64,000 nucleotides of DNA from Aurantiochytrium sp. KH105 (Eukaryota > Sar > Bigyra > Thraustochytrida > Thraustochytriidae): contig BGKB01000072.1 in NCBI GenBank assembly GCA_003116975.1, positions 97,225-161,224 on the forward strand, given 5' to 3'. Of the stretch, positions 59,633-64,000 are shown piece by piece. A program made the translations under genes and the position numbers. Below the pieces are notes generated by a model that was not told the origin of the DNA, searched no databases, and saw nothing but the letters and a program-made list of their open reading frames with translations. Each line of letters begins with the position of its first letter. Positions within the stretch are counted from its first letter, which is position 1.

Positions 59633-62600
59633 CTAGGAACACCTCGCTGCGTCCTCCTGCGAGTCGAGAACTTTCTTGATCGCCCGCACGAGATCGTCGA
59701 CCTCTGACGAGGACTCAGCGCCATTCAACATCCGGACAAACAGCGGCTCGCCACTCCAGCCCGCACGGAATACACCCGTCCATGAGTGTGTCGAGTCCAG
59801 GCCGGGCTCCAGCACGCACGGAATCATATTAGCCGGCCCGCGCGTGTGCAGTGCGTGGTAAAATTCCGTGCGGCAATTGTCTGGTATCGTCCTATCCTTG
59901 TTGACGTTGTCCATGTACGTTTGTGTCACAAAGACGACAACCGCTTTGGATTGATCGATGCCATCAGCCATTGACTTGAGAACATCCGACCCAATATTCG
60001 ACTCGTCGAGCCAGCATTTGAAGTCGCGACCCTCGAGAGCGTCAGCCACGGCCTTTACTTTTCGATGCGTCTCATCATCTTCGCCCCAAGCATGCGACAG
60101 GAAAACGTCAAACGGCTTGTCAGAGCTAAGCAAAAACTTTGCCGCTTCGCTGCTCTCGATGAAGAGTGCAAACGATGTCAGGGGCAACGTTCTGAGGCCA
60201 CGCGAAGTGACGTCGCTTGCGGCTTGGTCGATAGCTTGGTCGATTGCTCGCACCGACGCGCAAGCAGTCTCGCGATCTGTACCGTCGGAACTGACGAAGA
60301 GATCTGGGTCAAGATTACCCTTCATGAAAGACGAGTTGATGTACTCCAGACTCCGCTTGAGAATGCTGACATGATTCGTCAGACTTCTGTCTGCTGGTCT
60401 CTCAAAGTAGAGCATAACCCGGTTGCCACTCGTCTCCAAAACCACGCCCACGCCATCGAACTCCATGCTTGCAAAGTCCGAAAAGACGCCATGCCGACCA
60501 ACAGCGATTGACACAGGGAGCCTTTGCACAACGCTGGCAATGAGGCGCTGGAAAACGCCTTGCGGTAGAATCGCAAACTCAATGTAAGCCAAAGCACGTC
60601 GGTCGCCCAGTCCACGAAGGGCCTCCTCTCGGGTAGCGTCATCGACACCACGCAAGAGACTGGGTATCAGGAGCGCGCCTTCTTCGTCCCCATTTCCGAT
60701 CCAGGGACTCGGACATGCCAGCAACATTGAGTTCATCAAAGCCGTTAGGTAGTCGATCGGCTCACGCTGCCATAGCCATTCCAGCAGATCACGGCTTGCA
60801 ACTCCACGGTCTGCCCACTCGTCGAGCGCATCCTCAAGCTCAACCGGAAGTTCTTCCTCATTGCCATCGTTAGTGTGATACAGCAGTTTCTTCTTGTGCT
60901 CTCTCATATGGCCCACATCTGGATCGCAAATGACGCGCGAAAGCGTGTCCAGCAACCACTGCGGGCGGATCACCACAATCTGGCGCAACGCGTCATTCTG
61001 ACCCGTTGTCAGATGTACTAGCACGCCTAGTTCATGCATGTACTTGAGCATCTTAGGCACGTCGTCTCTAGAAATGTGGCAATCATATTCGGCAATTTTT
61101 TCCACCAAATTCAGCGGTAAGTGATCCTCGTCTCGCGAAAGCAGGTGGTCCAGGCAGTAAGACCATCGCAACGGAACCTTGTCCTTTATAAAGGCCTTGT
61201 CTGCCACAGCCTTTGACAAGGCCGTCCGGAGATCCGCAACACGTGCGCCAACATCATCCCTGCCAGCGTTGTCGATCGAAGATGCACCACCCATTGCTCC
61301 TTCGTTCTGAACCGTAGCTGGCCGGAAGCCAAGCTTTCTAAGAATTCTCGATTGGACAGAGAGCTTGCTCGCGCCGGCCCGTGTTGGCCGCTCAGTGTTA
61401 TCGATGGGGAAAAAGTGAAGCCGTGCCTTGCTGTTCCGCACCACAGCTGGCTTCCCACCGAGGCCTTTCAGCACCTTGTCCTTCAGCGTATTTTGAATTT
61501 CATCATGATCGTTCGGGTCTGGTACCTGGTCCAAGTGTGTCCCCACGAGCGCAACGTTGACGCTCGGCGCGTGTAGACGAATAGAGTCAATCCAGAAACG
61601 AAGTGTGTTCAAAGCATCTTCTTGGGACGCGAGGTTCTCAAACTCCTCCTCATTGAGAACTTCCGCAAAACGATCCTTGCCCAGCACCTCGCGCATATCA
61701 AAAACGAGCACGTAAACGCCGTGTTGTGTCAGAAATAAATGGTGCAAGGCGTAAAAGACCTCTTGGCCGCCGTAGTCCCAGATCGTGAAGCTGACTTCCT
61801 CGTCTGGCGACCCCGCTTGCTTCTTCACTCGCACGCGAAGCGATGTGCGATTTGCCTTTGCAATGTTCTCCTCATTGAACCGCATCGATGCACGATGTTC
61901 AGCAGACTTTCGCGTCCCAGATTTCCGAGACTCTGACACCTGAGACTCAGACACCCGCGACTCAAACACTCGAGATCCAAGCTCAGACATGCGTCGAGAG
62001 ATACGCTTGCCAACGCTTTGCCTGCGGTATTTATATTTGGCAAACTGCTCGCCGAGATCAGCGTCGCCAAGATGCATGCGCTCTTTCCAGTCCCGTGTGC
62101 GCATAAGCGTGAGCTGCACACCAATCGTCGAGTCATGACTCGGATTGAATGGCTGATTCAGAAGCGTCCGGATCGTCGAAGTCTTGCCCGCAGCGGCCTT
62201 GCCCACGACCATGAGTTTTGCGCGACCCCAGCGCACCTTTTCGTTGGCCTTGAGTGCTTCTTGAGCGGTTTCATTGATATCGCGTACTTCGCTTTCCACA
62301 AGCGCGACCCGACCCTCGATGCGAGCCAGAATGTCAGAGGATATTCCGTATCCGCTGAGTCTATTCGGTGATGGTCATGTCAGAGTTTGCCAAATATACA
62401 ATGCTCTAGCTTTGTGAGCTGTTGGAACGTACGAAAGCTCTCGAAGGATGTCGTTGGTCTCAAGTGCAGAGGCTAAAGCTTCTGCACCTTCATCACGGAT
62501 ATCTTTTCCAGAAATGCTTTGTTGTGGCATATTTCACGTCAGTAAAAACTCAGTGGCGCCTTTTCAGCATCGGTCTTATTGTGACGGACGTACTTTAGCT

Positions 62601-64000
62601 TTTCTAGCATGCAGGAGTTCTCTTTGAGCGCGCCAGCCAGCGCCTTGGCGCCATCCGGGCCGATCTTGTTATACGAGAGACTGCGCTTGTGCAGCAGGAC
62701 GAATGCAGTGAACAACAAACGTGCGCAGCAACGATACATGAAAGAGACAAAAGACGAAACCGTTGCGGCGCCGTGCATTGGTTTGGTAGAATAAGTTCAT
62801 TGCGATTTGATCAGTTCTTCTTGTTCCTTGCGCGCATCTCTTCTTTTCTCACCATGACTTACTCTAATTTCTGCAGCGACGAGTTCTCCTTGAGCGCGCC
62901 AGCCAGCGCCTTGGCGCCATTTGGGCCGATCTCGTTCAATCCAAGACTGCGCTTGTGCAGCACGGAGAATGCAGTGAACAACAAACGTGCGCAGCAACGA
63001 TACATGAAAGAGACAAAAGACGAAACCGTTGCGGCGCCGTGCATTGGTTTGGTAGAATAAGTTCATTGCGATTTGATCAGTTCTTCTTGTTCCTTGCGCG
63101 CATCTCTTCTTTTCTCACCATGACTTACCTCAAGATCTGCAGCGACGAGTTCTCCTTGAGCGCGCCAGCCAGCGCCTTGGCGCCATCTGGGCCGATCTCG
63201 TTCGAATCAAGACTGCGCTTGTGCAGCACGGAGAATACAGTGAAAAACAAACGTGCGCAGCAACGATACATGAAAGAGACAAAAGACGAAACCGTTGCGG
63301 CGCCGTGCATTGGTTTGGTAGAATAAGTTCATTGCGATTTGATCAGTTCTTCTCGTTCCTTGCGCGCATCTCTTCTTTTCTCACCATGACTTACCTAAAG
63401 TACTGCAGCGACGAGTTCTCCTTGAGCGCGCCAGCCAGCGCCTTGGCGCCATCTGGGCCGATCTCGTTCGATCCAAGACTGCGCTTGTGCAGCACGGAGA
63501 ATGCAGTGAACAACAAACGTGCGCAGCAACGATACATGAAAGAGACAAAAGACGAGACCGTTGCGGCGCCGTGCATTGGTTTGGTAGAATAAGTTCATTG
63601 CGATTTGATCAGTTCTTCTTGTTCCTTGCGCGCATCTCTTCTTTTCTCACCATCACTTACCTAAAGTACTGCAGCGACGAGTTCTCCTTGAGCGCGCCAG
63701 CCAGCGCCTTGGCGCCCTCTGAGCCGATCTTGTTATCCCAGAGACTGCGCTTGTGCAGCACGGAGAATGCAGTGAACAACAAACGTGCGCAGCAACGATA
63801 CATGAAAGAGACAGAAGACGAAACCGTTACGGCGCCGTGCATTGGTTTGGTAGAATAAGTTCATTGCGATTTGATCAGTTCTTCTTGTTCCTTGCGCGCA
63901 TCTCTTCTTTTCTCACCATCACTTACTCTAATTCCTGCAGCGACGAGTTCTCCTTGAGCGCGCCAGCCAGCGCCTTGGCGCCATCTGGGCCGATCTCGTT
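59633..64000 (-). CDS. LRR-ROC-COR-TIR (ROCO) receptor-like protein, 5' end off window
   Basis: The exons on minus are >64000-63927, 63744-63661, 63478-63395, 63212-63129, 62946-62863, 62680-62594, 62516-62433 and 62360-59633. Each splice joins the frame through a split codon and all junctions are GT-AG. The first seven listed exons each encode one RNase-inhibitor-type LRR. The last exon (908 codons) has a ROC GTPase domain (VVGKAAAGKTST P-loop near 62203, WDYGGQEVFYALHHLFLTQH switch near 61777, VGTHLD for base recognition), a COR region (PLRWSYCLDHLL onward), a middle region, and a C-terminal TIR domain (about 60118-59720: DVFLSHAW, CWLDESNIGSDV, NCRTEFYHAL). The last exon has no ATG at its beginning and must be spliced. 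ROCO proteins use GTP-driven dimer change for signalling; TIR domains signal or cleave NAD+. An intracellular sensor role is inferred. Confidence 0.85.
62594..64000 (-). repeat. Exon-per-LRR tandem array, 266-bp period
   Basis: From the right edge to 62681 the sequence is a perfect-period array: exon cores recur every 266 bp, each unit being an 84-nt exon plus a 182-nt intron. The introns (63745-63926, 63479-63660, 63213-63394, 62947-63128, 62681-62862) differ from one another at only about one to six positions. The exon core (IGPDGAKALAGALKENSSLQ) is invariant or nearly so. The exon ends vary. The donor is GTAAGT and the acceptor GCGCAG in all of them. Two further LRR exons (62680-62594 and 62516-62433) are followed by short unrelated introns (77 and 72 bp). 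The array continues beyond the window. Confidence 0.93.

Follow-up and report, generated by a model that had tools for sequence, protein, structure and literature searches.

A leucine-rich-repeat exon array with a split contact strand in a candidate ROCO receptor gene of Aurantiochytrium sp. KH105

Introduction

Brown-algal LRR-ROCO genes, whose products carry leucine-rich repeats (LRRs), were reportedly the subject of Zambounis et al. in 2012, a study that Teng et al. cite. In the passages of Teng et al. (2024, PMC11378527) used here, these stramenopile genes have N-terminal LRRs with one phase-2 exon per repeat, diversifying selection at concave sites and, in Ectocarpus, alternative splicing of the LRR exons, and they are proposed to encode immune receptors with exon shuffling. 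Here we describe a gene of similar plan in the thraustochytrid Aurantiochytrium sp. KH105. The window, by which we mean the whole 64,000-nt stretch analysed (positions 97225-161224 of contig BGKB01000072.1, here C72), holds at positions 62594-64000 the LRR exon array of a predicted minus-strand LRR-ROC-COR-TIR (ROCO) gene. The units of this array have closely similar introns and exon cores and differ mainly in the codons of the putative contact strand.

The locus shares with the brown-algal genes the ROCO type, the N-terminal LRRs each on its own phase-2 exon and the diversified concave residues. This diversification is seen here as a 4- to 20-fold excess of strand columns over introns, with the proportion of nonsynonymous differences (pN) not above that of synonymous differences (pS) at the same codons. 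The brown-algal exon is 72 bp long and encodes a 23-residue LRR, whereas the exon here is 84 bp long and encodes a 28-residue LRR of the ribonuclease inhibitor type. The selected brown-algal sites (14, 16, 18 and 19) are numbered within the LRR of one exon, whereas here an intron lies inside the selected strand. Near-identical introns, a C-terminal TIR domain and haplotype arrays without common units also distinguish the present gene from those in the passages cited, which name a TIR domain on a ROCO protein for the red alga Chondrus and not for brown algae (PMC11378527).

Human NOD-type NLR genes, as described in passages of Istomin and Godzik (2009, PMC2747839), have one 28-residue LRR (XLaaN...LaaL) per single exon, as here, and therefore the same boundary inside the aaLXLaa strand (LxxLxL); NLRs carry NACHT whereas the gene here carries ROC-COR. 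The HNWD genes of Podospora anserina (het-d, het-e) work alike according to passages of Paoletti et al. (2007, PMC1805685) and Chevanne et al. (2010, PMC2873952), with repeats that evolve in concert within and between loci and are reshuffled, repeat regions that are polymorphic, and positive selection on four surface residues of each repeat. However, these are WD40 repeats on a fungal STAND protein, with an instability measured through 143 spontaneous mutants, whereas the gene here has LRR exons predicted to join a ROC-COR-TIR exon. Zebrafish NLR-B30.2 genes also form a large receptor family with gene conversion and positive selection, but the passages of PMC4852459 report selection for B30.2 rather than for the LRRs and hold no exon array of this kind.

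In broad terms the idea is familiar from these related systems. New here are the combination found in this organism, a contact strand split by homogenised introns, and the way in which fast and slow arrays contrast between haplotypes. A preliminary description of the array had stated that no receptor diversified in this way was known from the lineage. This was overstated for the wider lineage, given the brown-algal ROCO genes (PMC11378527) and the exon boundary of human NODs (PMC2747839, both sources in part); for thraustochytrids, a literature search that was not by full text throughout found no description of such an array.

Results

Contact-strand codons differ more than introns

The array is built of 266-bp units, each comprising an 84-nt phase-2 exon that encodes one LRR and a 182-nt intron inside the concave β-strand. 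Tandem Repeats Finder reports a single array at window 62615-64000 (period 266, 5.2 copies, 95% matches). AG and GT flank the complete window exons, and the spliced frame is open down to a stop at 59633. The unit structure given in the preliminary description is borne out by these data, and the five strands that it quoted are all present in the spliced translation.

Diversity was measured over 31 complete 84-nt units from four related arrays in the 76-Mb, 367-contig assembly, on contigs C72 (7 units, four of them in the window), C149 (12), C52 (6) and C156 (6). The set leaves out the cut exon at 63927-64000, the 87-nt exons and the terminal LRR exons; 29 introns were used, two of the 31 units being without a usable one. 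The first 17 and last 9 exon nucleotides had a diversity of 0.366 compared to 0.027 for the introns in C72, 0.342 compared to 0.052 in C149, 0.380 compared to 0.038 in C52 and 0.341 compared to 0.129 in C156. Exon core diversity was 0.03-0.07 across the four arrays. Over 15 strand-codon columns the strand/intron ratio was 20 (C72), 9.5 (C149), 16.5 (C52) and 4 (C156), and strand exceeded intron in all four arrays with a permutation P of 0.00005, the floor of the test. Within the window, intron pairs differ at 2 to 6 of 182 positions (among the pairs listed, the best three per unit). Near-identical introns and exons that outpace them at contact residues had both been noticed beforehand and are upheld here, and the low core and intron diversity supports the idea of a young or homogenised backbone.

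Across the 31 units, all of them free of stops, there are 8 distinct residues at strand position x7, 12 at x8 and 9 at x3, and most scaffold positions are fixed or almost so. Outside the strand (x13 and x14 left out), pN within arrays was 0.022 and pS 0.11, and because of this difference the scaffold is, by this measure, under purifying selection. The corresponding values for strand codons x3, L4, x7, x8 and x10 were 0.48 and 0.49, near saturation. We read these as whole codons that probably diverged long ago and were retained, with the introns giving the neutral level, rather than as the excess of pN over pS that fresh positive selection would leave. The earlier statement that all exon differences but one are nonsynonymous nearly fits the four complete window exons (two synonymous differences by eye, at nt 4 and nt 82), but does not fit the 31 units.

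The two haplotype arrays are out of register

Contig C149 carries the other haplotype of the C72 locus. The two agree at 98% over 8.6 kb downstream and at about 95% over 7.6 kb upstream plus 10 kb downstream, and are collinear on both sides of the array. Two neighbouring genes, for L34e and a channel protein, have synonymous divergences (dS) of 0 and 0.023 between the haplotypes, whereas the ROC exon (window 59633-62360 vs C149:23222-25987) has a dS of 0.122 and a nonsynonymous divergence (dN) of 0.035. By this excess in dS over its two neighbours, the receptor gene stands out as a local peak of divergence, which is what alleles kept for a long time, or exchange with a paralogue, would produce.

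When C72 and C149 units were compared in register from either end (7 pairs), the strand difference was 0.55, compared to 0.60 for all 84 pairs (P = 0.19 for random pairing). In two control pairs of sister arrays the register differences were 0.05 compared to 0.54 for all pairs (C197/C13) and 0.00 compared to 0.49 (C138/C69). The preliminary description had considered that the arrays might prove fixed. This was not borne out in the assembled parts of the two haplotypes, C72 having an N gap, so that its count is of assembled units: they have no register, and no contact signature is common to the 7 and 12 assembled complete units of C72 and C149. Furthermore, for each of the 31 units the closest partner in another array differs in at least 3 of the 15 strand columns.

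Half-strands are reassorted among units

Of 26 strands joined across the intron, 25 were distinct. The 5′ half-strand 'SR' is paired with six different 3′ halves, and the reverse reuse of 3′ halves is also seen. Four-gamete combinations between the halves, across the exon core, were found for 87 of 90 site pairs. For 16 of 29 units the best full-unit match, as listed first, lay in another array, seven of these 16 matches being tied or nearly tied with a unit from the same array as the query. This pattern fits exchange of units or part-units between arrays. Recombination in the intron had been proposed to shuffle half-strands. The halves are indeed reassorted, but the intron as the site is not supported since exchange through the exon core would reassort them equally.

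Slow sister arrays have the same exon layout

In two sister ROCO pairs, C197/C13 (9 units) and C138/C69 (5 units), each unit has its collinear counterpart, and in both pairs exon differences are fewer than intron differences. These pairs were matched on ROC matches before the arrays were read, so that the pairing rests on ROC and not on flanks. C201 and C41 were taken as different loci, their units differing throughout. Some units were missed by the search pattern in C138/C69, C201 and C41 (gaps of 406-434 nt). As these slow sister arrays have the same exon layout, the layout alone is not the cause of fast change.

Constraint on the introns was considered as a cause of their identity and rejected on two counts. 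Diversity is about equally low at synonymous sites beyond the strand, and in the slow pairs the introns have diverged further than the exons (6.6% vs 3.9% and 3.4% vs 3.0%).

The array is predicted to join a ROC-COR-TIR exon

The features of the gene in the window, all on the minus strand, are as follows in the order of transcription.

63927-64000, minus strand: LRR exon cut by the window end, 74 nt read, the remainder in a scaffold N gap
63745-63926, minus strand: 182-nt intron, from exon ends
63661-63744, minus strand: LRR exon, 84 nt, phase 2 (LWDNKIGSEG...LQYF)
63479-63660, minus strand: 182-nt intron
63395-63478, minus strand: LRR exon, 84 nt, phase 2 (LGSNEIGPDG...LQYF)
63213-63394, minus strand: 182-nt intron
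63129-63212, minus strand: LRR exon, 84 nt, phase 2 (LDSNEIGPDG...LQIL)
62947-63128, minus strand: 182-nt intron
62863-62946, minus strand: LRR exon, 84 nt, phase 2 (LGLNEIGPNG...LQKL)
62681-62862, minus strand: 182-nt intron, from exon ends
62594-62680, minus strand: last array exon, 87 nt (LSYNKIGPDG...SCMLEKL)
62433-62516, minus strand: terminal LRR exon, 84 nt, behind a 77-nt intron
59633-62360, minus strand: 3′ exon with ROC, COR and TIR domains, to the stop codon

The 3′ exon has an acceptor AG and an open frame. Splice signals and the open spliced frame argue for one predicted gene in which the N-terminal LRRs join the ROC-COR-TIR exon, and a predicted protein of Hondaea, P0004, joins such LRR exons to ROC-COR-TIR. 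Pfam matches on the 3′ exon include Roc (68.5 bits, cut-off 27), COR-A (38.7 bits, cut-off 35.3) and TIR_2 (55.9 bits), each above its cut-off. None of the four Pfam matches of this exon is NACHT or NB-ARC; ROC-COR is present instead. The preliminary description had missed this adjoining exon. It had placed the array correctly at 62594-64000, but the last exon there is 87 nt long, a further LRR exon follows at 62433-62516, and the array runs past the window.

Beyond the window the C72 array continues with a 1,352-base N gap (C72:161225-162576) and then three more complete units. A likely first exon about 0.15 kb upstream of the array (reading MSALEQEHDPVADAVKAMSEGETSL...) itself terminates with a half-strand; C149, C52 and C156 have corresponding exons. 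Nine of ten arrays compared close with an 87-nt exon, the exception being C52, whose array is cut off by the contig end. In C54 and C117 a pattern search found no such exon. The terminal 84-nt LRR exon has counterparts in C149, C156, C138, C69, C201 and C41. A ROC exon of this close type was not found for C52, only C72, C149 and C156 having one at ≥93%. At C52:423442-425040 the contig end falls inside the related array. A second tandem repeat lies upstream of the gene (L010:299-1423; C72:169299-170423), with an offset of about 150-160 bp, and is out of register with C149.

The intron cuts the strand in the modelled fold

By sequence, Hondaea protein P0009 matches NLRP chains and ribonuclease inhibitor 3tsr (E 4.7e-39), with a chain named MOP84A as its first match. 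In an AlphaFold model of Hondaea P0004, strands recur every 28 residues (e.g. residues 32-36 = x3, L4, x5, L6, x7). The model was built on a 10-sequence alignment with a mean pLDDT of 52, and only its LRR part was used (residues 11-160, blocks 81-93). According to this model the intron would cut codon x5 in mid-strand, which agrees with the earlier claim that it splits the concave strand in phase 2. In LRR structures, as described in part of PMC2747839, this strand lies on the concave surface.

Relatives in Hondaea

The channel protein encoded next door is 98% identical to a Hondaea fermentalgiana protein over 93% of its length, and Hondaea protein P0007 has 99.4% identity over 168 residues with locus C13. 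The six array LRRs of P0004 equal the exons of locus C201 save one residue (by eye). By these identities the genome belongs to Hondaea or to a very close relative of it. For the window ROC-COR-TIR exon the top matches are Hondaea proteins at 54-58% identity (the best 7 of 113 matches, from the 7,996 candidates sharing most words that were scored). The product of the window gene itself was not among the proteins found with these scored candidates. The public Hondaea model P0007 keeps few of the 10 LRR exons that are readable at C13:643839-646153 (L018); gene prediction seems to lose most of the LRR array at this locus.

Related arrays and the size of the ROCO family

The genome search found further related arrays on C149, C52, C156, C54/C117 and C44, with array DNA matches on at least 34 contigs (among the matches listed; 175 matches in all). 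From the spacing of matches, we infer that C54 and C117 probably form a second allelic ROCO array pair. Their best array alignment ranges from 88% over 1.3 kb to 90% over 0.9 kb, below that of C72/C149, and no contact signature is common to C54 (15 units) and C117 (7 units). Three further units of C54 (gaps of 373, 373 and 377 nt) fell outside the pattern, 15 being counted, and C117 has an N gap, 7 being counted.

On C44, 17 84-nt LRR exons (C44:1420-5352) precede an open frame in which a protein kinase domain scores 103 bits (L024/L026). An ankyrin-like stretch in this frame is below cut-off, and the 1,043 residues read, beyond which the frame runs off the stretch, gave no match to ROC or COR. 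The x7/x8 diversity of C44 is 4.6 times its intron diversity.

In this two-haplotype assembly COR-A gave 124 matches, 116 of which exceed the Pfam cut-off. For a thraustochytrid, this is a large ROCO family. If all were paired, the count would be near 58 per haploid set. Passages of Teng et al. (2024, PMC11378527) put the ROCO genes of several SAR species, Schizochytrium aggregatum among them, at a maximum of four each, and those of a brown alga at 9 to 47. A genome search with Pfam LRR_6 was of no help for counting these arrays.

Discussion

Collectively, the observation on which the preliminary description was built is confirmed, and is stronger than its reading of the DNA could show. We consider it likely that the gene is a candidate nonself receptor diversified by exchange of exon-plus-intron units together with selection on contact residues. 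The array would encode the ligand-binding LRR horseshoe of a (probably cytosolic) LRR-ROC-COR-TIR receptor. Duplication, loss and exchange of the 266-bp units, both within alleles and paralogous arrays and between them, would keep scaffold and introns alike and recombine half-strands, while selection would retain variant contact residues. Ligand binding would then switch the ROC-COR GTPase and trigger the TIR effector. To judge from architecture and evolution, recognition of pathogens or nonself is the likeliest role.

Several points weigh against this proposal. The pS of strand codons is as high as their pN, so that the signal is an excess over introns and not pN above pS. Four-gamete combinations are also frequent within the halves, at 79 of 105 site pairs for the 5′ half and 13 of 15 for the 3′ half, so that recurrent mutation may contribute. 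The x7/x8-to-intron ratio within the slow arrays, whose introns are old and diverged, is 1.7-2.1 (C197, C13 and C201) and 3.4 (C41). As slow arrays also show strand above intron, though less so, contact-site diversity alone is no mark of fast arrays; by these comparisons the fast arrays are marked by a homogenised backbone and lost register together. No more than two pairs of each kind, fast and slow, make up the sample. Finally, the arrays of C72 and C117 are interrupted by N gaps, so that unit order could be misassembled and the counts are those of assembled parts.

One alternative, which we think unlikely, is that the array is chiefly a bank for combinatorial splicing, with exons skipped or combined into many isoforms as reported for the brown-algal ROCO genes. 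Any exon skip would keep the frame because the array exons are 84 (or 87) nt long and in one phase, and alternative splicing of LRR exons is described for Ectocarpus in passages of PMC11378527. Such splicing leaves the unit differences between haplotypes unexplained, and it could act alongside unit exchange with selection.

Diversity-generating retroelements and lamprey VLR assembly rewrite sequence by local hypermutation or template copying. A process of this kind at the exon ends would account for the near saturation of columns x7 and x8 (0.57-0.75), for strand-codon pS equal to pN and for the raised third-position diversity at L6 (0.40) and I11 (0.32). However, the edges of the variation follow codons, third-position diversity being 0.00 at L1 and 0.06 at Q2, beside x3, and 0.13 at N9, between x8 and x10. 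The codon-sharp edges beside x3 therefore disfavour regional hypermutation. The raised third positions fit hitchhiking with old variants, though they speak less clearly against hypermutation, and we give this process little probability.

An assembly artefact, in which similar arrays were collapsed or cross-joined and the non-collinearity is unreal, seems to us just as improbable. The N gaps in C72 and C117 and the end of contig C52 inside its array are what such an artefact might leave. Against it, erroneous joins could not restrict the variation to contact codons or leave all 31 units without a stop, and the two sister pairs are collinear. Collinear alleles would also give close unit partners, but gap-hidden units aside, the nearest partner in another array is at least 3 of 15 strand columns away for all 31 units.

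Recent neutral tandem duplication, with young units drifting and contact residues unselected, fits the similarly low diversity of introns (0.027-0.129) and of synonymous sites outside the strand (0.05-0.14), but drift predicts exon change no greater than intron change and the strand columns exceed introns 4- to 20-fold in all four arrays with the rest of the exon conserved, on which contrast plain neutral duplication is rejected as very improbable.

A broader version of unit exchange with selection is possible, if rather doubtful. The split-strand 84-nt exon with its intron may be a mobile diversification unit across effectors (ROC-COR-TIR and kinase), in which ongoing exchange through introns and exon cores would make half-strand combinations fast enough for clones to have repertoires of their own. 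If true, this would be a clonal analogue of adaptive receptor diversification.

The locus bears on the question of how the variable recognition receptors of single-celled eukaryotes are built. One two-haplotype assembly here contains both fast arrays and slow sisters of the same exon layout, which makes the cause of fast diversification directly comparable. If confirmed, our proposal would mean that receptor diversification through exon arrays, known from multicellular brown algae, also occurs in a single-celled stramenopile that can be cultured, and would add arrays whose selected contact strand is built from two exons.

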